From an uncultured Psychroserpens sp. (GTDB lineage: Bacteria; Bacteroidota; Bacteroidia; Flavobacteriales; Flavobacteriaceae), in contig CANKZZ010000002.1 in NCBI GenBank assembly GCA_947488655.1, positions 434,001 to 498,000 on the forward strand: a DNA stretch of 64,000 nt. Reading direction: 5' to 3'. Both the position numbers and the translations under genes were made by a program. Every line of letters starts with the position of its first letter. Positions within the stretch are counted from its first letter, which is position 1. Under the pieces are notes generated by a model that saw only the letters and a list, made by a program, of their open reading frames with translations, was not told where the DNA came from and did no database searches. Positions 4,282 through 46,739 of the stretch are shown one piece after another.

Positions 4282-5145
4282 TTAACCTAAATAAGTTTTT
4301 AGTATTTTACTGCGAGACGTATGTTTTAATCTTCGAATCGCTTTTTCTTTAATTTGTCTAACACGCTCTCGGGTTAAATCAAACGTTTCTCCTATTTCTT
4401 CTAAAGTCATTGGGTGTTGATTACCAAGACCAAAATATAATCTAATAACGTCTGCTTCTCGAGGTGTTAAAGTTTCTAACGCGCGCTCAATTTCTGTACG
4501 TAATGATTCATGTAATAAATCTCTATCAGGATTTGGAGACTCGCCACTACGTAATACATCATAAAGGTTAGAATCTTCTCCTTGTACTAATGGCGCATCC
4601 ATTGATACATGACGACCAGAATTTTTTATAGACTCTTTAACTTCATTAATAGTCATGTCTAATTCTTTGGCAATCTCCTCTGCACTTGGAGGACGCTCAT
4701 GACTTTGTTCTAAAAAGGCAAATGTTTTATTTATCTTGTTTATAGATCCAATCTTATTTAAAGGTAAACGTACAATACGAGACTGCTCAGCTAATGCTTG
4801 TAGAATTGATTGACGTATCCACCATACTGCATAAGATATAAATTTAAATCCACGTGTTTCATCAAAACGTTGTGCAGCTTTTATTAATCCTAAGTTACCT
4901 TCATTAATTAAATCTGGTAGTGTTAAGCCTTGGTTTTGGTATTGTTTTGCAACAGATACAACAAAACGTAGGTTAGCCTTAGTTAGTTTTTCTAACGCTA
5001 ATTGATCTCCTGCTTTAATACGTTGTGCTAATTCAACTTCTTCATCTGCAGTAATTAAGTCAACCTTACCGATTTCCTGTAAATACTTGTCTAAAGAGGC
5101 GGTTTCCCTGTTGGTTACCTGCTTGGTGATTTTTAGCTGTCTCAT
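4282..5145 (-). CDS. rpoD: Primary sigma factor, RpoD/SigA type
   Basis: 287 residues, the short form usual in Bacteroidota, without the long region 1.1 of E. coli RpoD. Region 1.2 is [20 protein letters not shown]. Region 2 includes [17 protein letters not shown] and the -10 recognition part [18 protein letters not shown]. Region 3 follows, and region 4 ends with [20 protein letters not shown], a helix-turn-helix that contacts the -35/-33 element. It directs core RNA polymerase to housekeeping promoters, which in this group carry TAnnTTTG instead of TATAAT; such boxes recur through this window. It is transcribed alone, with about 250 bases before rpe. Confidence 0.96.
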
Positions 5146-5234
5146 TTATTTATACTTTAAATTTGGGTAAATGTATGTTACTATATAGTTATACGTAACA
5201 AGTGCTAAAAATGTTACAATAAAAACAAAATAAT

Positions 5235-5609
5235 TTAAATTTTGATTAATTTTTTATTGTTTAGGTTGATATCATCAAGCATTTCTGAAGTAAACTTGTA
5301 ATGACCTCTCGTAGTTATTAATCTGAAATGTGATGACTTTAAAGCTGTCAACGCATTAAGAAATAACCATTTAGATTTTAATAGTTTTGGCTTTTCACTT
5401 TTTAAGCTAATGTCAAAATAATGTTTGCGTCCTTCTTTTGTTGCAACAATATCTGGTGTGATAGAAATATCACTACCTCGTTTTGAGTAAGATTTTGGCG
5501 TTTCGTAACCATCGGTATCTGCCTTAATGTTTTCAAAACCGTGTTGCTCTAAGTACTCTACTGAGTTTTCTAAAATGTCCTTGTATTTATCTTTATCTGC
5601 ATGTATCAT
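5235..5609 (-). CDS. Conserved hypothetical protein, possible PD-(D/E)XK nuclease fold
   Basis: 124 residues, no signal peptide and no membrane segment, so cytoplasmic. I do not recognise a named family. The middle reads TPDIVATKEGRKHYFDISLKSE, whose spacing (PD, then a hydrophobic strand with D-I-S-L-K) resembles the catalytic core of restriction-like and Holliday-junction-resolvase-like folds, preceded by a helix with an acidic residue. The match is imperfect because the second motif is D-x-S-x-K instead of (D/E)-x-K. It stands alone between rpoD and a decayed gene. It could equally be a non-catalytic relative or an unrelated fold. Confidence 0.6.
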   Translation of the reverse strand: MIHADKDKYKDILENSVEYLEQHGFENIKADTDGYETPKSYSKRGSDISITPDIVATKEGRKHYFDISLKSEKPKLLKSKWLFLNALTALKSSHFRLITTRGHYKFTSEMLDDINLNNKKLIKI

Positions 5610-5736
5610 AGCTATTAGTATACTAAAATTCTACGAGAAATACAAATTTTTAAGCATTTAATTATTTTTAAATCTGTAATCTAAACCTGTACTAGTTGAA
5701 AAAATAAGGAGTGTAATCAATATTTTAAGCTATGGG

Positions 5737-5974
5737 TTATAGTTGATAATTAAAGTTAGACTCTAAGTTTATAAAAAATCTATCAACCAATTTGTGTTCA
5801 ATACCAACACCAAACTGGCTTTATAATTCGTCATACGATTCTACCAGCCTACAAAAGAGCCAGTAAATTTGTATGATTTGATTTTTCCAGATATGTCATG
5901 AAAGTAATCTTGCAAATTATCTTGTGCTACTTCTTTACTTCTACACTATTTTGAGCATAAAGCATATAAGTCAT
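5737..5974 (-). pseudogene. Decayed outer-membrane beta-barrel gene
   Basis: The minus strand holds protein-like fragments in different frames. The last (5740-5820) reads GVGIEHKLVDRFFINLES and ends NFNYQL before TAA at 5737-5739, a typical final pair of beta-barrel strands. The fragment before it (5844-5930) reads DNLQDYFHDISGKIKSYKF and then TGSFVGW, followed by an in-frame TAG and a frame change. A further piece starts at an ATG at 5974 (MTYMLYAQNSVEVKK). Together they look like the C-terminal part of a porin-like protein inactivated by a stop and at least two frameshifts. The remaining sequence at 5610-5736 and 5975-6147 is AT-rich, and I see no gene in it. Confidence 0.55.
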
Positions 5975-6147
5975 CTTTATAAATATTGTATAATTGACTT
6001 TACGCCTTTACGTATATTCGTCTTAAGGCTTTTATTGTTTTTAGTGAATCCAAATAGATTTTTTAATGTAAGACTCTGTTAGCTTATTAATTTAGAATTT
6101 ATATTTTTTGTTAAATTTTATTGGTGTAGCATAATCTACTGTGGTAA

Positions 6148-7218
6148 TTAATCACAAGAAACTGAAGATAAAGTGATTGTCACAAAATAAGATTCAGGTT
6201 CGTCATCTTCGTCAATATCTAAAATCTCGTTAATTCTTACATATATAACTTGATTTTCTTGAGTGTTTAAATAAATCTCATTCGACAATATTGGGTTAGT
6301 TTCTTGTTGAGCATCTTCGTCGGTCTCATAAAAAGATATAGGAAACGTTTCATCCAACTCTAGAGTGTCAAATATACATTCGGTATAATTATCTAATATA
6401 AATTCTGAGACGCCTTCACTCTCTAACAACTCACATTCTTCATAAATAAAATTTCCACAATCTGTAAAATTACTGTCGCACCTTTTGTTTAAAATTAGCT
6501 CTCTATCATTATTAGTAAGCAGCATTGTGTTCTCATCGAGATATGTAACCTTCCAGTCAAAGTTGAAAAATTCTCCAATTTGAGTATCATCTACAAGATT
6601 GATATTAAAATGTAATTCATTTTCGATAATTAATGGCGACCAAGAACCAAATAAAACCTCATTATCAACATTTAAAGACGTAAATCCATTGTCTTCATAA
6701 AAATAACCACCTAAGTAGGTGTTGTCATAATTATAACTATAGCCAATTTTTAAAGGGCAATTTTGAATAAAGATGTTACACTCAATTAGTTCTTCTTCAT
6801 TATGACAATTATCTATGGCCACTTTTAATTCTTCGGGTGTATCTATTATAATTTCTTCTCCAGACTCTAATGTGCCAGTTATAGGGAAACTTATACTAAT
6901 AGAGTGATTTGGATTGAGACCGTTTAATATTGAGCTAAATTGCTCATCATTAATAATAAAATTGGTAGATACGTATGTATCTGTATCATCAAAAATGAAT
7001 AAGGTTAGCGGATAAATAAAATCAATACAAGCAATACTTTTATCTGGTCGTTCTTCATCATTCGTAATATCTTTGATATCATCATATAAATCAGAATCTG
7101 AGCGAATTACTTCAACTGAGTTAATATCTATAGTTGCTGTTAGATTATCATCTTGGTCATAAGAGCAAGAAGTTAGTATAAATAGTAAAGTAATACATAT
7201 AAGTTGTAAAGATTTCAT
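6148..7218 (-). CDS. Hypothetical lipoprotein, acidic
   Basis: 356 residues from the Met at 7218, which gives a clean lipoprotein signal (MKSLQLICITLLFILTSC, modified Cys at 18). The extra residues available upstream to 7275 would bury it. The mature protein is strongly acidic and rich in Asp, Glu, Asn and Cys, and contains CIDFIYPLTLFIFDDTD, a segment shared by a recurrent family of flavobacterial surface lipoproteins. I do not know its function. It is probably anchored in the outer membrane. It stands as a single gene with the decayed outer-membrane gene downstream on the same strand. Confidence 0.75.
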   Translation of the reverse strand: MKSLQLICITLLFILTSCSYDQDDNLTATIDINSVEVIRSDSDLYDDIKDITNDEERPDKSIACIDFIYPLTLFIFDDTDTYVSTNFIINDEQFSSILNGLNPNHSISISFPITGTLESGEEIIIDTPEELKVAIDNCHNEEELIECNIFIQNCPLKIGYSYNYDNTYLGGYFYEDNGFTSLNVDNEVLFGSWSPLIIENELHFNINLVDDTQIGEFFNFDWKVTYLDENTMLLTNNDRELILNKRCDSNFTDCGNFIYEECELLESEGVSEFILDNYTECIFDTLELDETFPISFYETDEDAQQETNPILSNEIYLNTQENQVIYVRINEILDIDEDDEPESYFVTITLSSVSCD

Positions 7219-34974: not shown

Positions 34975-35059
34975 CGATTTTTTGACGACTAATAGATTGC
35001 TAAGTATTAAAACAAGGTTAAAATAATGGGTAATTTTTTGTAAGTTGCCAACTTTAATA

Positions 35060-36067
35060 ATGTATATGAATGACGGAATAATCCTAACACTCGCTTACCC
35101 AGAAACCATAGTCTCTCATGCCGAAGAATGGTACTCTAAGTTTTTAAGATTCTTTTTTATTGGAAGTAAAAAGCACGTAAGAGCAGGTCATGCAGCTTTG
35201 GTGTTAATTGATAAATCGACTGGTGTTTTAGAATATCATGATTTTGGACGCTACATCACGCCATCTCCAAATGGAAGAGTTCGAGGAAGAGAGACCGATT
35301 TTGAATTGAATTTCCCTATAGTTGCTCATATACAAAATAGTGAAATCACTAACCTAAATGAAATACTTAAATTTTTAGCAACCCATCCTAAATTAACTCA
35401 TGGAGACGGTAATTTGTATGCTTCAGTATGTAGTGAAATTGATTATAAAAACGCAAGAGCTCATATTACCTTTATGCAAAATAAAGGATTTATACGGTAT
35501 GCAGCTTTTGCTAAAGTAGCTTGTAATTGTGCTCGTTTTGTTACAGATGCTCTTATTGCAAGTGTTACAAATCAAACTATAAAATCTAAACTTATTAAGT
35601 CTAAAAGTTTTACACCAAGTACAATTGGAAATGTGATTATTGCAGATACCGAAAATGATGTTTATATAGTGTCTGATACTGGTGAAATAAGTGAGTTTAA
35701 ATCATCGGTGAATAGAGAGAATAGACGCTTATTTTTAGACGTACTTAAAGGGTATAATCCAAGCTTAGTTGGTACAATTAAGCCAAGAGATAATGATGAA
35801 AAAGTTGAACATGCACAATGGTTAGGTGGTATTGCTGCTGGCGCGTGGTTTGAAATCTATGATATTGGAAGTAAAACGCAATACAGGTATAGACGTATTT
35901 CTCCCTACGGAAATGTTGATTGTGATGGCATTTATGAAATTAATAAAAAAGGTTTTGATATCTCTTTAGAGTATAAATTTATACAATATTCTAATTGTAA
36001 ATACTTTCATATCCTCCAAAAGGATTATACGTATAGGTTTGATTATATTAAAGATTACAAGTCTTAG
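35060..36067 (+). CDS. DUF6695-like protein, possible permuted papain-fold enzyme
   Basis: 335 residues from the ATG at 35060; another ATG lies at 35066, and the frame runs up to a TTG at 35045. No signal peptide or membrane helix, so cytoplasmic. I recall the opening (IILTLAYPETIVSHAEEWYS) from a flavobacterial family annotated DUF6695. His44 in RAGHAALVLID and Cys155/Cys157 in VACNCARFVTDAL have the His-before-Cys order of circularly permuted NlpC/P60 (YiiX/LRAT-like) folds, where both are catalytic. The C-terminal third has beta-rich YRRISPYGNVDCDGIYEI, possibly a separate domain. A cysteine hydrolase or acyltransferase is therefore possible but unproven. Single gene. Confidence 0.65.
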   Translation: MYMNDGIILTLAYPETIVSHAEEWYSKFLRFFFIGSKKHVRAGHAALVLIDKSTGVLEYHDFGRYITPSPNGRVRGRETDFELNFPIVAHIQNSEITNLNEILKFLATHPKLTHGDGNLYASVCSEIDYKNARAHITFMQNKGFIRYAAFAKVACNCARFVTDALIASVTNQTIKSKLIKSKSFTPSTIGNVIIADTENDVYIVSDTGEISEFKSSVNRENRRLFLDVLKGYNPSLVGTIKPRDNDEKVEHAQWLGGIAAGAWFEIYDIGSKTQYRYRRISPYGNVDCDGIYEINKKGFDISLEYKFIQYSNCKYFHILQKDYTYRFDYIKDYKS

Positions 36068-36731: not shown

Positions 36732-38081
36732 TTAAATTGGAAAATTTTCAATGGTAGTAAAGAAATTGACGATATCCTTTTCTTGTAATTGGCTATTTAT
36801 TGTTACCATTCTTACAAATTCTTTATTATTAAAATTTCCGAAGCCAACCATAAGTTGTGCATCTTCATAAAGCGCAGTGCATAATTTATTGGCAGGAATG
36901 TTTTTGTAATTAAAACATACCGAAATAGAATCTTCAAAACTATAAAGCGTATAATCTGGATGTTGGTTTATATAATCTCTAGCAAATTTAGCTAGGTTAA
37001 ATTGATGGTTAACAATAGTTTTTAGGCCTTTGTGTCCTATAGATTTCCATAAGGTCCAAAATTTCAACGCATCGTTTCTTCTACCACATTGCAAAGAGGT
37101 TTTACCTAAATTGAAGTCATCATCATTGGTTTGGTAAAGATACTCTGCATCATTAGAAAATGATTGGTGTAGGTGTTTTTTTTCTTTGGTAACAATAATA
37201 GAGCAGCTAAGTGGTGTGCCTAGCATTTTATGTGCGTTAACGCTAAAAGAGTTAGTGTGTTCTATCCCTTTTACTAAGTGTTTGTAATCATCACTAAAAA
37301 TAACAGCACCACAATATGCACCATCCAAATGCAGCCAGAGATCATGTTTTTTGCAAACCTTGCTTATCTGTTCTACATCATCAAAAGCACCCAACACTGT
37401 CGTACCTGCTGTGGCATTTACAAAAAAGGGTTGGAAGCCTAGATCAATATCTTTAGCTATTTGTTGATCTAAATCTTTAGCTTGCATTTGACCTTTATCA
37501 TTTGTTTTAATAGCTCTTACTTGGTCTCTGCCAACACCTATAAATGATGCATTTTTTGCAATAGAGTAGTGAGATGCTGCAGATGTGTATAACGTCATTT
37601 TATTAGATATACCTTCGTTTCTAGCCTTTGGGTTGTATTTGTCTCGAGCCATCAAAACAGCCATGTAATTACTCATTGAGCCACCAGGAGCAAAAGTACC
37701 ATCGGCAGTATCTGGATAACCAATCATATTGCAAATAGTATGAAGTATAGTTTTTTCTATCCCAACTTGTGGACCTGCTACTTTATAAGTATACATGCTG
37801 TTATTTAGCATAACCGCTAATAAATCTCCAAGTGTGGCTCTATCAATTCGACCGCCAAATAATTGATTAAAAAAAGAAGTAGAGGCAGTTTTAGGCGTGC
37901 TTTTAATTATACCTTTTAATGCTGCGATGAAGTCTTGGTCGATCGTTGGGTTTTCATTTAGACTAATATCTAGTGTTTCATAAAGTTTAGAAGTATCTAT
38001 TGGTGTTGCAACTGGATTGTTTTTTTCTTCGGAAATTAGATATTCCGCAAGTTCTGTAAACAATTTAAGGTCTTTGAGCAT
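36732..38081 (-). CDS. Group II PLP decarboxylase, probable cysteinesulfinate decarboxylase
   Basis: 449 residues, somewhat shorter than animal CSAD/GAD because the N-terminus is reduced. Fold-type I decarboxylase motifs: DGTFAPGGSMSNYMAVLMAR, SAASHYSIAKNASFIGVG, NATAGTTVLGAFDDVEQI, LHLDGAYCGAVIF, the Schiff-base Lys285 in NAHKMLGTPLSCS, and SLQCGRRNDALKFWTLWKS. The last closely follows the animal GAD/CSAD pattern (QCGRxxDxxKxWxxWK). It would remove the alpha-carboxyl of an acidic amino acid. The divergent neighbour is a cysteine dioxygenase whose product is cysteinesulfinate, so CSAD activity giving hypotaurine is the best guess. Glutamate or aspartate decarboxylation cannot be excluded. Confidence 0.82.
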   Translation of the reverse strand: MLKDLKLFTELAEYLISEEKNNPVATPIDTSKLYETLDISLNENPTIDQDFIAALKGIIKSTPKTASTSFFNQLFGGRIDRATLGDLLAVMLNNSMYTYKVAGPQVGIEKTILHTICNMIGYPDTADGTFAPGGSMSNYMAVLMARDKYNPKARNEGISNKMTLYTSAASHYSIAKNASFIGVGRDQVRAIKTNDKGQMQAKDLDQQIAKDIDLGFQPFFVNATAGTTVLGAFDDVEQISKVCKKHDLWLHLDGAYCGAVIFSDDYKHLVKGIEHTNSFSVNAHKMLGTPLSCSIIVTKEKKHLHQSFSNDAEYLYQTNDDDFNLGKTSLQCGRRNDALKFWTLWKSIGHKGLKTIVNHQFNLAKFARDYINQHPDYTLYSFEDSISVCFNYKNIPANKLCTALYEDAQLMVGFGNFNNKEFVRMVTINSQLQEKDIVNFFTTIENFPI

Positions 38082-38174
38082 TTGTTAAGTTGGTTCTTTA
38101 ATTTTGGCTTTTGTAAATTTATCCCTATTTTCTCAAAAAATTAGAATAAACCCTTTATTAAATTAAAACGTCTA

Positions 38175-38705
38175 TTGAAATCTCCTGAGTCTATTCAGAA
38201 ATTAATACAACTATTGTCGGTATCTTCTAAGGAAGATTACAATAAAATTTTAAATAATTTTGATTTTAAGTCTATAGACTTGGCTCTAAATGAAAGTTGG
38301 TCTAGCCAACATTACACAAGAAATTGTTTGTACAGAGATGCTTATTTTGAATTAATTTTATTGTGTTGGGAGCAAGGTCAGGAAACTGCGGTTCATGGTC
38401 ATGATGGAGAGGATTGCTGGGTGTATTTATTAGAAGGAGAAATGGAAGAAGTGTTTTTCTCGCTAAACGATAACAACTCGCTGTTAGAGGTAGGGTCTAA
38501 AAAAGTTATTGCAAATGAGCTTACGTTTATGAATGATAAGATAGGATTTCATAAGCTAAAAAATAATTTTACAGGTCGATCATTAAGTTTACATTTATAT
38601 GCAAAACCAATTGAGAATTGTGTGTTTTATGATCATGTAACGCAATCTTTTAAGGATAAGATTTTACATTATGATACGTTTAAGGAAGTTGCGGTAAAAA
38701 GTTAA
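38175..38705 (+). CDS. Cysteine dioxygenase
   Basis: 176 residues from a TTG start: the frame has no ATG before residue 118, and a stop lies 33 bases upstream. It is a cupin with iron ligands His74, His76 (HGHDGEDC) and His126 (GFHKL). Cys81 is five residues after the second ligand, and Tyr142 is in SLHLYAKP, matching the Cys93-Tyr157 pair that crosslinks in mammalian enzymes. It would oxidise L-cysteine to cysteinesulfinate with O2. The divergent decarboxylase gene across a 93-base gap suggests a joint hypotaurine/taurine route. Its last 4 bases overlap the convergent plug gene. An upstream TAAATTTA may be a weak -7 box. Confidence 0.85.
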   Translation: MKSPESIQKLIQLLSVSSKEDYNKILNNFDFKSIDLALNESWSSQHYTRNCLYRDAYFELILLCWEQGQETAVHGHDGEDCWVYLLEGEMEEVFFSLNDNNSLLEVGSKKVIANELTFMNDKIGFHKLKNNFTGRSLSLHLYAKPIENCVFYDHVTQSFKDKILHYDTFKEVAVKS

Positions 38706-40542: not shown

Positions 40543-41892
40543 ATGTCAAAAGACATTAAGATTAAAAAAGGTCTGGATATAAAACTTGTTGGTGAAGCTG
40601 ATAAAACAGTTGAACAAGCCATTATAAGTAATTTCTGCACTATCAGACCCGAAGATTTTCATAGCGTTATTCCAAAACTTATAGCCAAAGAAGGCACTCG
40701 TGTACAAGCTGGTGACGTACTTTTTCATAATAAGGATATAGAAGCTATGAAATTTGTTTCACCTGTTTCTGGAGAAGTGGTTGAAATAGAAAGAGGACCA
40801 AGACGTCGTATCGATGCTATTAAGATTAAAGCAGATAAGCCACAGGTTTTTAAAGACTTTGGTAAATTTGATATGACATCTGACGCAGCAGCAACAAAAG
40901 CACATTTATTAGCTTCAGGATGTTGGGCTTTCATTAAGCAGAGACCATATGATGTCATTGCTAATCCAGAGAAATCGCCAAAATCAATATTTATTTCGGC
41001 AAATTCTACTGCACCATTAGCAGCAGATTTAGATTTTGTACTCTCAGGTAAAGAGCAAGCATTGCAAGCAGCTGTTTCTGCATTAGCAAAATTAACAGAA
41101 GGTAAAGTTCATATTGGTGTTGGGTCTAACAACTCACCATTAGCAAGTATGAATGATGCTACAATACATAAAGTATCAGGTCCGCATCCAGCGGGAAATG
41201 TTGGTACACACATTAATAAGTTAGATCCTATTAATAAAGGAGAAACAGTTTGGACGGTTAATGCACAAGATCTTGTGATAATTGGAGAATTGTTACTTAC
41301 TGGTAAATTTAATGCAGAGCGTATTGTTGCACTTGCAGGATCATCAGTAAAAAAACCAAGATATTTTAAAACAATTATTGGTAGTGAAGTATCAACAATG
41401 GTTTATGATAATGGTGTAGATAAAGATGGTAATGATCGTATTATCTCCGGAAATGTGCTGTCAGGAAAACAGTTAAAACCAGATGGTAGCTTAGGCTTTT
41501 ATCACAACGTAATTACTGTAATACCTGAAGGTGATGATTATGAATTCTTTGGTTGGAACAAACCAGTTTTTAATAAGATTTCTACATCTAGAGCATTTAC
41601 TTTTTCTTGGTTAAATCCTAAGAAAAAATATGCATTAAACACCAATACAAATGGTGAGCATCGTGCTTTTGTTGTTACAGGATCTTATGAAGAGGTGTTT
41701 CCTTTAGATATATTTCCAATGCAAATATTAAAAGCTTGCATGTATCAGGATTTAGACGAAATGGAAGCTTTAGGAATGTATGAAGTTGCACCAGAAGATT
41801 TTGCTTTGACAGAATTTATATGTGTGTCTAAACAACCACACCAAGATATTATTAGAAAAGGATTAGACTTAATGCTTAAAGAAATTGGATAA
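40543..41892 (+). CDS. nqrA: Na+-translocating NADH:quinone reductase subunit A
   Basis: 449 residues, standard NqrA length. It opens IKIKKGLDIKLVGEADKTVE and has FHSVIPKLIAKEGTRVQAGD, a lipoyl/biotinyl-like beta hammerhead, then VSPVSGEVVEIERGPRRRID. The C-terminal part has EEVFPLDIFPMQILKACMYQ and DLDEMEALGMYEVAPEDFAL. It is a cytoplasmic peripheral subunit that takes part in quinone binding. First gene of a complete six-gene operon. Na+-NQR oxidises NADH, reduces menaquinone and pumps Na+, typical for marine Bacteroidota. Confidence 0.96.
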   Translation: MSKDIKIKKGLDIKLVGEADKTVEQAIISNFCTIRPEDFHSVIPKLIAKEGTRVQAGDVLFHNKDIEAMKFVSPVSGEVVEIERGPRRRIDAIKIKADKPQVFKDFGKFDMTSDAAATKAHLLASGCWAFIKQRPYDVIANPEKSPKSIFISANSTAPLAADLDFVLSGKEQALQAAVSALAKLTEGKVHIGVGSNNSPLASMNDATIHKVSGPHPAGNVGTHINKLDPINKGETVWTVNAQDLVIIGELLLTGKFNAERIVALAGSSVKKPRYFKTIIGSEVSTMVYDNGVDKDGNDRIISGNVLSGKQLKPDGSLGFYHNVITVIPEGDDYEFFGWNKPVFNKISTSRAFTFSWLNPKKKYALNTNTNGEHRAFVVTGSYEEVFPLDIFPMQILKACMYQDLDEMEALGMYEVAPEDFALTEFICVSKQPHQDIIRKGLDLMLKEIG

Positions 41893-41928
41893 TTATTCAT
41901 TGAGAAACGAAATGAAAAATATTACAAA

Positions 41929-43164
41929 ATGGGTTTAAAAAGTAATTTACATAATTTTAGACAAAAGAATAAAGACAAAAAATGGTTGCCAGCATTTTCT
42001 GCAATACATACGTTTTTATACTTGCCTAACGAGACCACTCATAACGGAACTCACATAAAAGCAGCCGATGATTTAAAGCGTACCATGAACATTGTAATTA
42101 TGGCAATGGTGCCATGTTTACTTTTTGGTATGTTTAATGCTGGTTATCAGCATCACGTGGCATTTGGTGAAATAGAAAGAGCAGCAGGAGGTTTCTTTAG
42201 TTTAGATTCAACATTCTGGACGATGGATAACTTCATGGTTGGCTTCTGGAAAGTTATACCATTAGTTATTGTATCATATGGAGTAGGTCTTATCATTGAG
42301 ATCTTATTCGCAATGAAAAATAAACACGAAGTAGAAGAAGGATACTTAGTAACAGGAATGCTAGTGCCATTAATTGTACCAATTGATATTCCTTTATGGA
42401 TGTTAGCAGTTGCAGTTGCATTTGGTGTAGTAATAGGTAAAGAAGTATTTGGAGGTACAGGAATGAATATCTTAAATCCTGCTTTAACAATTAGAGCATT
42501 TTTATTCTTTGCATATCCTACATGGATGTCTGGAGATAAAGTATGGGTTCATGGAGCTGTAGAACGTGATCAAATGATTGCTAACGGTTCTAATCTAGAT
42601 GCCATTTCTGGAGAAACAATTTTAGGTAGTTACGCTCAAGGTAATACTAATGTCGTCTATGATTATTGGGATATGTTTTGGGGAATAATACCAGGATCCG
42701 TTGGTGAGACATCTAAGTTTTTAATCATAATTGGAGCCTTATTTTTAATCTTTACAAAGGTAGGAAGCTGGAGAATTATTTTCTCTACATTAATTGGTGC
42801 TATTACAATGGGATTAATCTTTAATGGTGTTGTAAACGCAGGATGGATTCCTGAAACAAGTAAATTTTACGGTTTAATGAATGTACCATTTTGGCAACAT
42901 TTAATTATTGGTAGTATTCTATTTGGTGCTGTTTATATGGCAACAGACCCTGTAACTGCATCACAAACAAATAAAGGAAAATGGATTTACGGTTTCTTAA
43001 TTGGTTTCATATCAATTATGATACGTGTATTTAATCCTGCTTATCCAGAAGGTGTATTCTTAGCAATTTTATTAATGAATGTATTTGCACCTACTATAGA
43101 TCATTATGTAGTACAAGGTAATGTTAAGAGAAGAATGAAACGTCTAAAAGTTAAAACTGCTTAA
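41929..43164 (+). CDS. nqrB: Na+-translocating NADH:quinone reductase subunit B
   Basis: 411 residues with about nine to ten membrane helices. The probable FMN attachment site is Thr230 in DAISGETILGSYA; the family motif is S/T-G-A-T, so this one has Glu at the third position. Conserved IGKEVFGGTGMNILNPALTI and YMATDPVTASQTNKGKW are present. It holds covalent FMN and riboflavin and forms part of the Na+ path. It starts 36 bases after nqrA, and nqrC starts 2 bases after its stop. Confidence 0.96.
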   Translation: MGLKSNLHNFRQKNKDKKWLPAFSAIHTFLYLPNETTHNGTHIKAADDLKRTMNIVIMAMVPCLLFGMFNAGYQHHVAFGEIERAAGGFFSLDSTFWTMDNFMVGFWKVIPLVIVSYGVGLIIEILFAMKNKHEVEEGYLVTGMLVPLIVPIDIPLWMLAVAVAFGVVIGKEVFGGTGMNILNPALTIRAFLFFAYPTWMSGDKVWVHGAVERDQMIANGSNLDAISGETILGSYAQGNTNVVYDYWDMFWGIIPGSVGETSKFLIIIGALFLIFTKVGSWRIIFSTLIGAITMGLIFNGVVNAGWIPETSKFYGLMNVPFWQHLIIGSILFGAVYMATDPVTASQTNKGKWIYGFLIGFISIMIRVFNPAYPEGVFLAILLMNVFAPTIDHYVVQGNVKRRMKRLKVKTA

Positions 43165-43166
43165 CT

Positions 43167-43970
43167 ATGGAAAAGAGAACAGATAAAAACGTATATACTA
43201 TCATTTTTGCAATTGTAATGGTTGTAGTTGTTGGGTCCTTATTGGCATTTACAGCATCTAAATTAAAGCCTGCAATTACTGAAAATGAAAGAATTGAAAA
43301 ACAACAAAATATTCTTTATGCTTTAGGCGTAAATGAGAATGAAGGCACAGGAGATATTGCATTTGTTTCAAAGGCAGAAGTAGCCGATTTATTTAAGACT
43401 AAAGTAACAGAGCAATTAGTTTTAGAATCTAAAGATGGTAAAATCATCAAAACGATGACACGTCAAGAATATTTAGATTCAGACGAGAAAGCAAAGGAGC
43501 CTTATTTGATTGATGTTAAAAAGCAACAAGCAAATGCAAAAGCAGGAGAATCTCGCATGTTACCACTTTTTGTTGGTACATCAGAGGAAGGTGATACGTA
43601 TTATGTAGCTCCTATTAGAGGTAAAGGTCTTTGGGATGCAATTTGGGGTTATGTTGCTTTAGATAAAGACATGATTGTAAGAGGAGCCTTTTTTGATCAT
43701 GCAGGTGAAACTCCAGGATTAGGAGCAAATATAAAGCAACGTTATTTTATGGATGATTTTTATGGTGAGCATCTATTAACCGAGGCTGGTGCTTTTAAAG
43801 GTATCACAGTTGCTAAAGGTAACGCAGATCCTAAAAACAATGATAAAACAGATTATGAAGTAGATGCTTTAGCAGGAGCAACTATTACAGGAGATGGTGT
43901 AGCTGCAATGATAAAAGCAGATTTGAAATTGTATCTACCTTATTTTCAATCACTAAAAACAGCTAATTAA
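43167..43970 (+). CDS. nqrC: Na+-translocating NADH:quinone reductase subunit C
   Basis: 267 residues: one N-terminal membrane helix (IIFAIVMVVVVGSLLAFTAS) and a periplasmic FMN-binding domain. The covalent flavin threonine is Thr239 in DALAGATITGDGV. Family segments MLPLFVGTSEEGDTYYVAPI, GKGLWDAIWGYVAL and DHAGETPGLGANIKQRYF are present. It carries covalent FMN and passes electrons within the complex. Flavinylation needs an ApbE-type enzyme; an apbE gene is encoded at 50919. Separated by 2-3 bases from its neighbours. Confidence 0.96.
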   Translation: MEKRTDKNVYTIIFAIVMVVVVGSLLAFTASKLKPAITENERIEKQQNILYALGVNENEGTGDIAFVSKAEVADLFKTKVTEQLVLESKDGKIIKTMTRQEYLDSDEKAKEPYLIDVKKQQANAKAGESRMLPLFVGTSEEGDTYYVAPIRGKGLWDAIWGYVALDKDMIVRGAFFDHAGETPGLGANIKQRYFMDDFYGEHLLTEAGAFKGITVAKGNADPKNNDKTDYEVDALAGATITGDGVAAMIKADLKLYLPYFQSLKTAN

Positions 43971-43973
43971 ATT

Positions 43974-44618
43974 ATGGGACTATTTTCAAAAAAAGACGCT
44001 AAGTTAATTACAGATCCATTAGCAGATAATAACCCAATTACTATTCAAGTACTTGGTATTTGTTCTGCATTAGCAATTACTGCAGAGTTAAAAGCATCTT
44101 TAGTAATGGCAATTGCAGTAATCTTTGTACTTGGTGTTGGTAATGTTGTGATATCATTGATGCGTAATATTATACCATCAAAAATTAGAATTATTGTACA
44201 ACTTATTGTTGTAGCAACTTTGGTAATTATAGTTGACCAAGTACTTAAGGCATTTGCTTACGAATTGAGTAAGACGCTTTCAGTATTTATTGGTTTAATT
44301 ATTACAAACTGTATCATTATGGGACGTTTTGAGGCTTTTGCCCTCGGAAATGGTCCTTGGAAAGCTTTCCTTGACGGTATTGGAAATGCTTTAGGATATG
44401 GTGTAATTTTAATAATCGTTGGATTCTTTAGAGAATTATTAGGTTCAGGAACTTTATTTGGTATTCCTGTTCTAGGTGATGCTATAGAGAAGACGGGAGT
44501 TTATAAGTACGGTTACGAAAACAACGGGTTTATGCTAATGCCTCCTATGGCTTTAATTATTGTAGGGTTATTAATTTGGGCACAGCGTAGTAAGAACAAA
44601 GATTTAATAGAAGACTAA
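43974..44618 (+). CDS. nqrD: Na+-translocating NADH:quinone reductase subunit D
   Basis: 214 residues, six membrane helices, homologous to RnfE and to the paralogous NqrE. Conserved cysteines involved in the intramembrane iron centre occur in LGICSALAIT and LIITNCIIMGRFEAFAL. GNGPWKAFLDGIGNALGYG and GFFRELLGSGTLFG are family signatures. A 77-base gap before nqrE is the largest in the operon, but no terminator or promoter box is visible in it. Confidence 0.96.
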   Translation: MGLFSKKDAKLITDPLADNNPITIQVLGICSALAITAELKASLVMAIAVIFVLGVGNVVISLMRNIIPSKIRIIVQLIVVATLVIIVDQVLKAFAYELSKTLSVFIGLIITNCIIMGRFEAFALGNGPWKAFLDGIGNALGYGVILIIVGFFRELLGSGTLFGIPVLGDAIEKTGVYKYGYENNGFMLMPPMALIIVGLLIWAQRSKNKDLIED

Positions 44619-44695
44619 AAAAGTTTCAGTTATACGATCTAATTTACATTTTAAATTAAACGCGTTAGAACTGAAAACACATAAAATATAAGACA

Positions 44696-45421
44696 ATGAT
44701 AGAACACATCGAACTATTTTTTAAGTCCATTTTTATTGATAATATGGTATTTGCGGTATTCTTAGGTATGTGCTCATACTTAGCAGTATCTAAAAAAGTA
44801 TCAACAGCAGTTGGACTTGGTGCAGCAGTAATATTCGTACTAGCAATTACAGTACCTTTAAACTGGTTATTAGATCAATATCTGTTACAGCCAGGAGCAT
44901 TATCATGGTTAGGAGCAGAATATGCAGATTATGATTTAGGTTTCTTATCTTTTATCATGTTCATTGCAACAATTGCTACCATGGTACAATTGGTAGAAAT
45001 TGTAGTTGAGAAATTCTCACCTTCATTATATAATTCACTTGGTATTTTCTTACCATTAATTGCAGTAAACTGTGCTATCCTTGGTGGCTCATTATTTATG
45101 CAAGCTCGTGAGATTGAAACTTTAGGTTTAGCATTAAACTATGGAGTATCTTCTGGGATTGGGTGGTTCTTAGCAATTTTAGCAATTGCAGCTATTCGAG
45201 AAAAAATTAGATATTCTAATGTGCCAGCACCTTTGAGAGGTTTAGGAATTACTTTTATCATTACAGGTTTAATGGGAATTGGATTTTTAAGTTTTGGAGG
45301 TATGTTAACAGGTGGAGATGAAGAAGGAGAACCAACTACAGAGCCTAGAGCACAAATAGAAACAACACAAACTGATGAGAAAGCTAAGATATTAGCTGAG
45401 AACACTAAAATAATTGAGTAG
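44696..45421 (+). CDS. nqrE: Na+-translocating NADH:quinone reductase subunit E
   Basis: 241 residues. The membrane core (about 200 residues, six helices) has FLGMCSYLAVSKKVSTAVGL and LIAVNCAILGGSLFMQ with the two iron-centre cysteines. After the usual family end (GIGFLSFGGMLTGG) the protein continues for about 35 residues as a polar, acidic, Thr/Glu-rich tail (EEGEPTTEPRAQIETTQTDE). Tails of this kind occur, as far as I recall, in other flavobacterial NqrE. The tail is probably disordered and cytoplasmic. nqrF begins one base after its stop. Confidence 0.95.
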   Translation: MIEHIELFFKSIFIDNMVFAVFLGMCSYLAVSKKVSTAVGLGAAVIFVLAITVPLNWLLDQYLLQPGALSWLGAEYADYDLGFLSFIMFIATIATMVQLVEIVVEKFSPSLYNSLGIFLPLIAVNCAILGGSLFMQAREIETLGLALNYGVSSGIGWFLAILAIAAIREKIRYSNVPAPLRGLGITFIITGLMGIGFLSFGGMLTGGDEEGEPTTEPRAQIETTQTDEKAKILAENTKIIE

Positions 45422-45422
45422 T

Positions 45423-46739
45423 ATGATAGTTTTAGAAGCAGGAACAATAGGAACAGTAGTAGCAACTGTAGCAGCGTTTTTAGTCATATCGCTAATACTT
45501 ATAAGTCTATTATTGTTTGTAAAACAAAAATTATCACCATCTGGTCCAGTAAAGATTAAGATTAATGGTGAACGTGAAATCGAAGTAGCATCAGGAAGTA
45601 CGTTATTATCTACTTTAGGAGCCGAAAAAATATTCTTACCATCTGCCTGTGGTGGTGGAGGTACGTGTATACAATGTGAGTGTCATGTATTATCTGGTGG
45701 TGGAGAAGCTTTACCTACAGAAACACCACATTTTAGCAGAAAAGAACTTGCTCATGGTGCACGTTTATCTTGCCAGGTCAAAGTAAAGCAGGATATGGAA
45801 ATTACAATTCCTGAAGAAGTCTTCGGAATTAAAAAATGGGAAGCGACAGTTGTATCTAACTACAACGTAGCTACATTTATTAAAGAATTTGTGGTGGAGA
45901 TTCCTGAAGATATGAACTATAAAGCAGGTGGATATATTCAAATTGAAATTCCTAACTGTGAGGTGAAGTATTCTGATATGGATGTAACCGCTCATCCAGA
46001 AGATCACCCAGGAGAACCTGATAAGTTTAAAGCAGATTGGGAGAAATTTGGTTTATGGCCTTTAGTTATGAAAAACGATGAACTCGTTGAAAGAGCATAC
46101 TCAATGGCTTCTTATCCTGCAGAAGGAAGAAGAATCATGCTAAATGTACGTGTGGCAACACCTCCTTTTGATCGTGCGAAAGGCGGTTGGATGGATGTAA
46201 ATCCTGGAATAGCTTCATCTTATATTTTCAATCAGAAAATTGGTGATAAAGTGACGATTTCTGGTCCGTATGGAGAATTCTTTATAAATGAGTCTGACTC
46301 TGAAATGTTATACGTTGGAGGTGGAGCAGGAATGGCGCCAATGCGTTCTCACTTATATGAATTATTTAGAACCTTAAAAACAGGACGTAAAGTGACTTAC
46401 TGGTATGGAGGACGTTCTAAGGCAGAGTTATTTTATATCCATTACTTTAGAGCGTTAGAAAAAGATTTTCCAAACTTTAATTTCTATTTAGCGTTATCTG
46501 AACCTATGGAACAAGATAACTGGAAAGTTAAATCAGATATCAATGATGAAGCTGGAGATGGATTTGTTGGTTTTATTCATCAAGTAGTAATAGACCAATA
46601 CTTATCCAAACATGATGCTCCAGAAGACATAGAATTATACTTCTGTGGACCTCCTTTAATGAACCAAGCAGTTCAAAAAATGGGAGAGGATTATGGTATT
46701 CCAGATGAGCATATTAGATTCGACGACTTTGGTGGTTAA
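45423..46739 (+). CDS. nqrF: Na+-translocating NADH:quinone reductase subunit F
   Basis: 438 residues from the ATG at 45423; a TTG at 45414 inside nqrE would add only three residues. One N-terminal membrane helix (VATVAAFLVISLILISLLLF). A ferredoxin domain has [2Fe-2S] ligands Cys76, Cys82, Cys85 (ACGGGGTCIQC) and Cys117 (LSCQV). An FAD/NADH reductase domain follows with RAYSMASYPAEGRR (FAD), VGGGAGMAPMRSHL (NADH) and YFCGPPLMNQAV. This is the electron entry subunit, which takes hydride from NADH. Last gene of the operon; a strong terminator lies 57 bases downstream. Confidence 0.97.
   Translation: MIVLEAGTIGTVVATVAAFLVISLILISLLLFVKQKLSPSGPVKIKINGEREIEVASGSTLLSTLGAEKIFLPSACGGGGTCIQCECHVLSGGGEALPTETPHFSRKELAHGARLSCQVKVKQDMEITIPEEVFGIKKWEATVVSNYNVATFIKEFVVEIPEDMNYKAGGYIQIEIPNCEVKYSDMDVTAHPEDHPGEPDKFKADWEKFGLWPLVMKNDELVERAYSMASYPAEGRRIMLNVRVATPPFDRAKGGWMDVNPGIASSYIFNQKIGDKVTISGPYGEFFINESDSEMLYVGGGAGMAPMRSHLYELFRTLKTGRKVTYWYGGRSKAELFYIHYFRALEKDFPNFNFYLALSEPMEQDNWKVKSDINDEAGDGFVGFIHQVVIDQYLSKHDAPEDIELYFCGPPLMNQAVQKMGEDYGIPDEHIRFDDFGG

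Follow-up and report, generated by a model that had tools for sequence, protein, structure and literature searches.

The window analysed here is the whole 64,000-bp stretch at positions 434,001 to 498,000 of contig CANKZZ010000002.1 (G000:C2:434001-498000 in our numbering), taken from the 3.6-Mb genome of an uncultured Psychroserpens sp. (GCA_947488655.1). The subject of this report is a pair of genes at 36732-38705, a candidate for the two-step conversion of cysteine to hypotaurine, which a preliminary description of the stretch had placed there as a divergent pair; both genes were found as stated. On the minus strand, 36732..38081 encodes a group II decarboxylase of 449 residues, dependent on pyridoxal 5'-phosphate (PLP) and similar to cysteinesulfinate decarboxylase (CSAD), as judged from its matches to Pyridoxal_deC and to PDB entries. 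On the plus strand, 38175..38705 encodes a type I cysteine dioxygenase (CDO) of 176 residues, assigned by its matches to CDO_I and to PDB entries. According to the positions of the open reading frames, an intergenic region of 93 bp (38082..38174) separates the two divergent start codons. The CDO gene starts with TTG (38175), and the column of this codon is kept in all 17 aligned divergent loci.

The CDO matched the Pfam family CDO_I at E 3.8e-19 (69.3 bits, cut-off 23). Its best matches in PDB, at E 1.4e-21 and weaker, were type 1 cysteine dioxygenases, mammalian CDO1, while the solved bacterial CDOs matched it at about E 3e-8. As the reference we used 2b5h, which we take to be rat CDO and the source of the residue numbers. 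Identical residues of 2b5h were aligned with Arg49, His74, His76, Cys81, His126, Ser138, His140, Tyr142 and Cys149, the counterparts presumably being, in this order, Arg60, His86, His88, Cys93, His140, Ser153, His155, Tyr157 and Cys164 of the rat enzyme. The preliminary description had read the motif HGHDGEDC, a third histidine at 126 and SLHLY ending in Tyr142, and had equated Cys81 with rat Cys93; the first motif begins at residue 74, the second spans residues 138-142, and Cys81, five residues past the second histidine, was indeed aligned with the Cys of 2b5h. In the window, the iron ligands His74 and His76 (HxH) lie at 38394..38402, Cys81, the predicted thioether partner, at 38415..38417, and Tyr142, equivalent to rat Tyr157, at 38598..38600. 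Arg49 (38319..38321) pairs in the alignment with the Arg in the 2b5h sequence YTRN, and its counterpart Arg60 is presumably the residue that binds the substrate carboxylate; Arg at this position marks the cysteine type, from which the 3-mercaptopropionate type differs. The protein thus combines a CDO_I match with the three histidines (74, 76 and 126), Arg49 and the Cys81/Tyr142 pair of the animal type, from which the thioether could form, as expected for type I CDO.

For comparison we used a family sample of 249 genomes and a scan of named genomes, the latter covering the best 80 of 531 relatives and biased to close ones. The two sets of CDO sequences obtained, 18 from the family sample and 37 from the named loci, partly overlap. 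At the Cys81 column, every one of the 18 family rows and of the 37 named-locus CDOs has Cys. The columns of Arg60, the iron-binding His pair, Cys93 and Tyr157 are kept throughout the 18 rows, except for undetermined residues at two positions of G129, and throughout the 37 CDOs, except where the L145 match leaves them uncovered. Variation was found at the Cys149 column, where 29 of the 37 named CDOs have Cys, five have Ser and one has Asn, the other two being uncovered there, and at the Ser153 position, which is Thr in 6 of the 18 family CDOs. Among seven other bacterial CDO-family proteins, consisting of 4 of 17 plasmid matches and 3 weak Bacteroidota matches, three have Gly at the Cys93 column, two have Trp and two have Cys, the Cys in one case depending on an alignment gap. 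Cys at this position is therefore not unique to these flavobacteria, which qualifies the earlier statement that many bacterial CDOs have Gly there. A thioether between Cys81 and Tyr142 probably assists the predicted dioxygenase.

The decarboxylase matched Pyridoxal_deC (PF00282) at E 2.7e-79 and is the sole gene above the cut-off of this family in its own genome. When all PDB chains were ranked, CSAD 2jis came first (E 3.5e-77), followed by CSAD 6zek and GADL1, and then by GAD1 and GAD2; we take 2jis and 6zek to be the human and mouse enzymes. Lys285 (37227..37229) of the sequence NAHK was aligned with the NPHK of CSAD as the PLP lysine, and the animal-like motif noted in the preliminary description, QCGRRNDALKFWTLWKS, begins at residue 331. 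In its available part, one study states that three active-site positions determine the selectivity between glutamate decarboxylase (GAD) and CSAD (PMC8153620). Another, likewise available in part, gives the CSAD motif as F-aa19-S-aa-Y, credits it to Agnello et al. 2013, and describes a flounder enzyme with F/N/F as slower than a trout enzyme with F/S/Y (PMC4754659). By this definition the window decarboxylase carries the exact CSAD motif, with Phe75 (37857..37859), a spacing of 19 residues, Ser95 (37797..37799) and Tyr97 (37791..37793). At the same positions GAD67 has S/N/F and GADL1 has Y/S/Y, so that the window enzyme, reading F/S/Y, departs from glutamate decarboxylase (GAD65/67). With the group II PLP family, the PLP lysine and the F-19aa-S-x-Y motif, it carries these features of CSAD (EC 4.1.1.29), and we predict a CSAD-like decarboxylase selective for cysteinesulfinate over glutamate and aspartate.

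The selectivity residues are well conserved. F/S/Y is kept in 29 of 31 full-length family members, the other two, both from genomes without CDO, having Y/S/Y. It is also kept in 76 of the 80 named loci, that is in 36 of 37 with a neighbouring CDO and in 40 of 43 without one, and the remaining four (1/37 and 3/43, respectively) have Y/S/Y. The closest decarboxylases among the best 80 of 531 relatives are those of Arcticiflavibacter luteus (89%) and Psychroserpens burtonensis (88%). As a separate observation, Mangrovimonas sp. TPBH4 carries two identical orphan decarboxylase proteins of the Y/S/Y type (L150 and L151), the genes of which lie on the same contig at a distance of about 74 kb.

The phylogeny was examined with a quick tree of 117 rows, which included three animal references, gave long-branch warnings and contained no characterised diaminobutyrate enzyme. 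The flavobacterial decarboxylases formed a clade (support 100) outside the animal group of CSAD, GADL1 and GAD67 (support 99). The tree shows only that they are not nested within GAD, and indicates no special kinship with CSAD; since the clade stands outside the animal group, ancestry does not favour CSAD over GAD and the motif carries the argument. The preliminary description would have been contradicted by clustering with glutamate or diaminobutyrate enzymes, and such clustering was not found in this tree, limited as it is in its references for the latter. The NCBIfam model of diaminobutyrate decarboxylase (NF052646) was matched at 196.1 bits, far below its cut-off of 900, and the PanP model (TIGR03799) at 135.6 bits, with a cut-off of 606.1.

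The two genes are strongly associated, in one direction only. The decarboxylase search, run at E 1e-20, gave a match in 186 of the 249 family genomes, with identity falling from 57% straight to 33%, and we defined the close decarboxylase clade by an identity of at least 57%, counting also G129, in which the gene is split into two parts (63% and 54%). This close decarboxylase is present in 32 of the 249 genomes. CDO is present in 18 of the 249, and all 18 are among the 32 (Fisher p 4e-19, uncorrected for relatedness). In 17 of the 18 the two genes are neighbours, the exception being G178, where the assembly is fragmented and each gene is on a contig of its own. The orientation is divergent in 14 of these 17 pairs, while in G212, G027 and G148 both genes are on the same strand, with CDO first. 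A nineteenth genome, G196, gave a weak, divergent CDO-family match and has no close decarboxylase. In a draw of 395 genomes from the phylum, the CDO profile matched 8, of which 6 strongly. Among the 80 named loci, CDO is adjacent to the decarboxylase in 37, always divergently (the CDO match of L145 spans only 95 residues), including 11 of 11 loci titled Psychroserpens and 7 of 29 titled Winogradskyella. The divergent pair was also found in more distant loci, of Salibacter, a Saprospiraceae metagenome-assembled genome (MAG) and a Fluviicola MAG. Carriage of the pair by mobile elements was considered and rejected: 26 pattern matches in viral contigs included no CDO relative, and the 301 plasmid records matching the decarboxylase and 17 matching CDO were all below 60% identity, and at most 31% among the matches listed (25 and 17, respectively).

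Taken together, the homology to CSAD and CDO, the active-site residues, the selectivity motif, the adjacency and the conservation make conversion of cysteine to hypotaurine the best reading. We estimate at about 0.84 the probability that this divergent pair encodes an animal-type route of this kind in a Psychroserpens-like marine flavobacterium, a figure that refers to predicted activities, a predicted cross-link and a predicted flow between the enzymes. In this route CDO would oxidise L-cysteine with O2 at the three-histidine iron site to cysteinesulfinate, a step that the Cys81-Tyr142 thioether would probably aid, and the PLP decarboxylase, made selective for cysteinesulfinate through Phe75, Ser95 and Tyr97, would then yield hypotaurine.

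Several findings weigh against this reading. Both activities are predictions from sequence. The 117-row tree did not show an ancestry that the decarboxylase shares with animal CSAD and not with GAD, the scores of the decarboxylase against the curated NCBIfam models stay well short of the cut-offs, and the CDO has no NCBIfam match at E 0.01. Of the 32 genomes that have the close decarboxylase, 14 gave no CDO_I gene, their assemblies being 89-100% complete; the CDO_I family search matched only the same 19 genomes. G231 and G133, likewise without a CDO match, have decarboxylases of 33% identity that nevertheless read F/S/Y. Similarly, no neighbouring CDO was found in 43 of the 80 named loci, for which the flank, not the whole genome, was inspected. 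Lack of conservation of the gene pair in relatives was to refute the preliminary description; the pair is conserved in one direction, CDO in the family sample being always accompanied by the decarboxylase, and in the other direction it is missing from these 14 genomes. The conversion of cysteine to hypotaurine inferred there is likewise supported in part, favoured by CSAD as the best solved match, by the exact motif and by CDO occurring only with the decarboxylase, and weakened by the genomes without CDO.

These genomes point to a history of loss. The pair is flanked in the window by a type IX secretion system (T9SS) plug gene and an ApaG gene, and we found the plug gene in 27 of the 37 CDO-bearing and in 42 of the 43 CDO-less named loci. 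Its distance from the decarboxylase is 607-1103 bp in 26 of the 27 CDO-bearing loci (in L176 the plug gene lies elsewhere) and 43-175 bp in 40 of the 42 CDO-less loci, the exceptions being L148 (528 bp) and L118 (332 bp). No CDO relic was found in the 528-bp gap of L148 (best E 0.005). In L118, an Algicola MAG close to Psychroserpens with a low contig coverage of 3.9 according to its title, the roughly 330 bp upstream of the gene for the decarboxylase (5001-6341) hold degraded pieces, broken by stops and gaps, that match the CDO of a close relative; the decarboxylase gene itself is uninterrupted. This remnant indicates loss rather than original absence of CDO in the L118 lineage. The pattern of CDO presence and absence requires 14 changes on the 117-row tree, at least 7 of them being forced by well-supported branches, and 8 on a tree of 81 rows. 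At this shared locus CDO is lost repeatedly, with the decarboxylase left intact.

The decarboxylase gene is uninterrupted in all 80 named loci. Its median ratio of nonsynonymous to synonymous substitution rates (dN/dS) is 0.078 (0.050-0.099) for 13 pairs of CDO-bearing loci, 0.060 (0.034-0.264) for 15 CDO-less pairs and 0.178 for 4 mixed pairs, using only pairs with unsaturated synonymous sites, which are not independent of each other. From the intact gene, the low dN/dS and the F/S/Y residues kept in most CDO-less loci, the decarboxylase seems to serve some purpose even without CDO, and where CDO is absent it must take its substrate from another source. A main role as the aspartate decarboxylase that supplies coenzyme A (CoA) was set back by PanD, which makes such an activity unnecessary for CoA and was found in 30 of the 32 close-decarboxylase genomes, including the window genome and all 14 without CDO. 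PanD was not matched in G129 (64% complete) or G205, and each of these two genomes carries CDO. G205, which is 99% complete with 2.2 Mb and contains the pair, may import beta-alanine or make it otherwise.

Among other explanations, the one with the best prospects, somewhat short of even odds, keeps the chemistry proposed above and differs in the purpose: the pair would dispose of excess cysteine or balance sulfur, with hypotaurine excreted. The repeated loss of CDO suggests a dispensable, condition-dependent role, in line with this explanation, and so does the poor evidence for a further step, the oxidation of hypotaurine to taurine. A search for flavin-containing monooxygenase (FMO; PF00743) matched 12 of the 32 genomes, 11 above the cut-off, other oxidases not being sought; the sole strong match was in G042 (189.7 bits), and the only FMO-like match in the window genome is weak and partial (31.6 bits, cut-off 22, about 130 of 532 positions). 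Oxidation of hypotaurine by a shared FMO was consequently dropped, none being evident across the 32 genomes. On the other side, a sodium/solute symporter adjoins the pair in 5 of the 32 genomes (L075, L077, L078, L079 and L080), all CDO-bearing, and would fit an osmolyte role equally well. In 4 of these 5 the symporter gene is directly downstream of the decarboxylase, and the two symporters scanned were above the cut-off of the SSS superfamily and below that of PutP. An osmolyte role of the product would be a guess.

Less probable, in our estimate, is that cysteate, or cysteinesulfinate of a different origin, is the substrate from which the orphan CSADs directly form taurine or hypotaurine, CDO being one of several possible suppliers. 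The uninterrupted decarboxylases and the lower median dN/dS of the CDO-less pairs, non-independent as these are, agree with this proposal. We take Chryseobacterium gleum to belong to the same phylum. This bacterium has a cysteate synthase for sulfonolipids, according to the available part of a report (PMC11211663), a further point in favour. The available part of PMC9304779 contains nothing on taurine. Against the proposal, an alternative supplier of substrate was not found in the 32 genomes with the cysteate synthase model TIGR03844, whose cut-off was reached in none of them. Of 14 control genomes, however, just one reached it, and the flavobacterial enzyme may lie outside the range of this model. 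Least likely by far is a broad acidic amino acid decarboxylase resembling GADL1, forming beta-alanine from aspartate or gamma-aminobutyrate from glutamate and using cysteinesulfinate as a side substrate where CDO is present: the persistence of the decarboxylase in the CDO-less family genomes and the few Y/S/Y members speak for it, whereas the window enzyme and 40 of the 43 CDO-less loci keep F/S/Y and not Y/S/Y or S/N/F, PanD is present in every CDO-less family genome, and CDO never occurs without the decarboxylase in the family sample.

The cysteine-to-hypotaurine reading is joined by a candidate regulatory element in the intergenic region. A conserved 20-bp block, AAAATAGGRATAAATTTACA, lies at 38112..38131 on the minus strand, about 50 bp before the decarboxylase. 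With no more than 2 mismatches it was found in 26 of the 37 CDO-bearing named loci, including all seven CDO-bearing Winogradskyella, and in 1 of the 43 without a neighbouring CDO, whereas none of 400 shuffled controls had fewer than 5 mismatches. The single CDO-less locus with the block is L118, that of the CDO relic, and the block is missing from 11 CDO-bearing loci, L122 and the more distant ones. The block has one match in the window, and exact matches were found only at the pair locus, in G000, G005 and G158. In a test of independent pairs the association of block and CDO gave a median p of 0.25, with few such pairs available, so that shared ancestry is a possible cause. The simplest reading is that the block is a regulatory element that disappears along with CDO. 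As an element of a wider regulon it was rejected, 30 matches with up to 3 mismatches in four genomes comparing with 33 for a reversed-pattern control; G158 alone gave 10 against 6, and the other matches in the four genomes, including all 8 in the CDO-less G174, have 3 mismatches. The promoter consensus of flavobacteria is TAnnTTTG, and no consistent promoter of this form was found in the intergenic region, with occurrences in 4 of 17 loci in the CDO direction and 2 of 17 in the decarboxylase direction. We raise as a tentative proposal, with the odds clearly against it, that CSAD is the core and CDO the optional part, an orphan CSAD acting on cysteate or cysteinesulfinate from a second source to give CDO-independent taurine or hypotaurine, and the block serving CDO-linked control.

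Two other features lie close to the pair. The gene at 35045-36067 (+) encodes a TseH-like domain, a Pfam name derived from a type VI secretion effector, and a C-terminal DUF6695; counting the window genome, 14 genomes have a relative of it at this locus. On the other side, a gene run at 40543-46739 (+) resembles, by eye, an operon for Na+-translocating NADH:quinone reductase, and is often kept next to the pair among the 32 genomes.

Taurine and hypotaurine are part of the marine organic sulfur pool, and the conserved CDO-CSAD pair names Psychroserpens and its relatives as candidate producers. The recurrent loss of CDO beside a CSAD that has stayed intact and under selection offers a natural experiment on a possible second bacterial way into taurine, and the orphan decarboxylases and the CDO-tracking 20-bp block are the parts worth following. 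Neither the recurrent loss nor the block was found described in searches of the openly licensed literature, made mostly through titles and abstract openings, and this negative is weak evidence of novelty.

The route itself is not new in kind, since the published prokaryotic CSAD route matches it. Bacterial CSAD genes reportedly occur in operons with CDO (Agnello et al. 2013, ACS Chem Biol). In the parts available, published reports describe the taurine pathway in bacteria, with the CSAD of Synechococcus sp. PCC 7335 expressed and purified (PMC8153620), a sporadic production of taurine by bacteria and microalgae (PMC10356861), and marine cyanobacteria and marine flavobacteria among the organisms with the cysteine route (PMC12585060). 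Compared by description, the pair in the window shares with the Synechococcus route two enzymes, the same predicted reactions and the F/S/Y motif, and differs from it in the divergent arrangement in 14 of 17 family genomes, the 93-bp intergenic region and the absence of CDO from many relatives. With animal CSAD (2jis and 6zek), its best solved match, the decarboxylase shares F/S/Y and a QCGRR segment, but it is only 36% identical to the 6zek segment, has NAHK for NPHK, belongs to a separate clade and has a shorter N-terminus, residue 31 being aligned with residue 72 of 2jis. Animal GADL1 (6enz) and GAD67 (3vp6) belong to the same family with an alignable core, and are set apart from it by their Y/S/Y and S/N/F residues. 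The CDO shares the HxH histidines with other bacterial members of its family, in which the Cys93 column is variable, and agrees with mammalian CDO1 (2b5h) in the three histidines and the equivalents of Arg60, Cys93, Tyr157 and Cys164, while being shorter, with 176 against 200 residues, and matching 2b5h at E 5e-21 over 145 residues.

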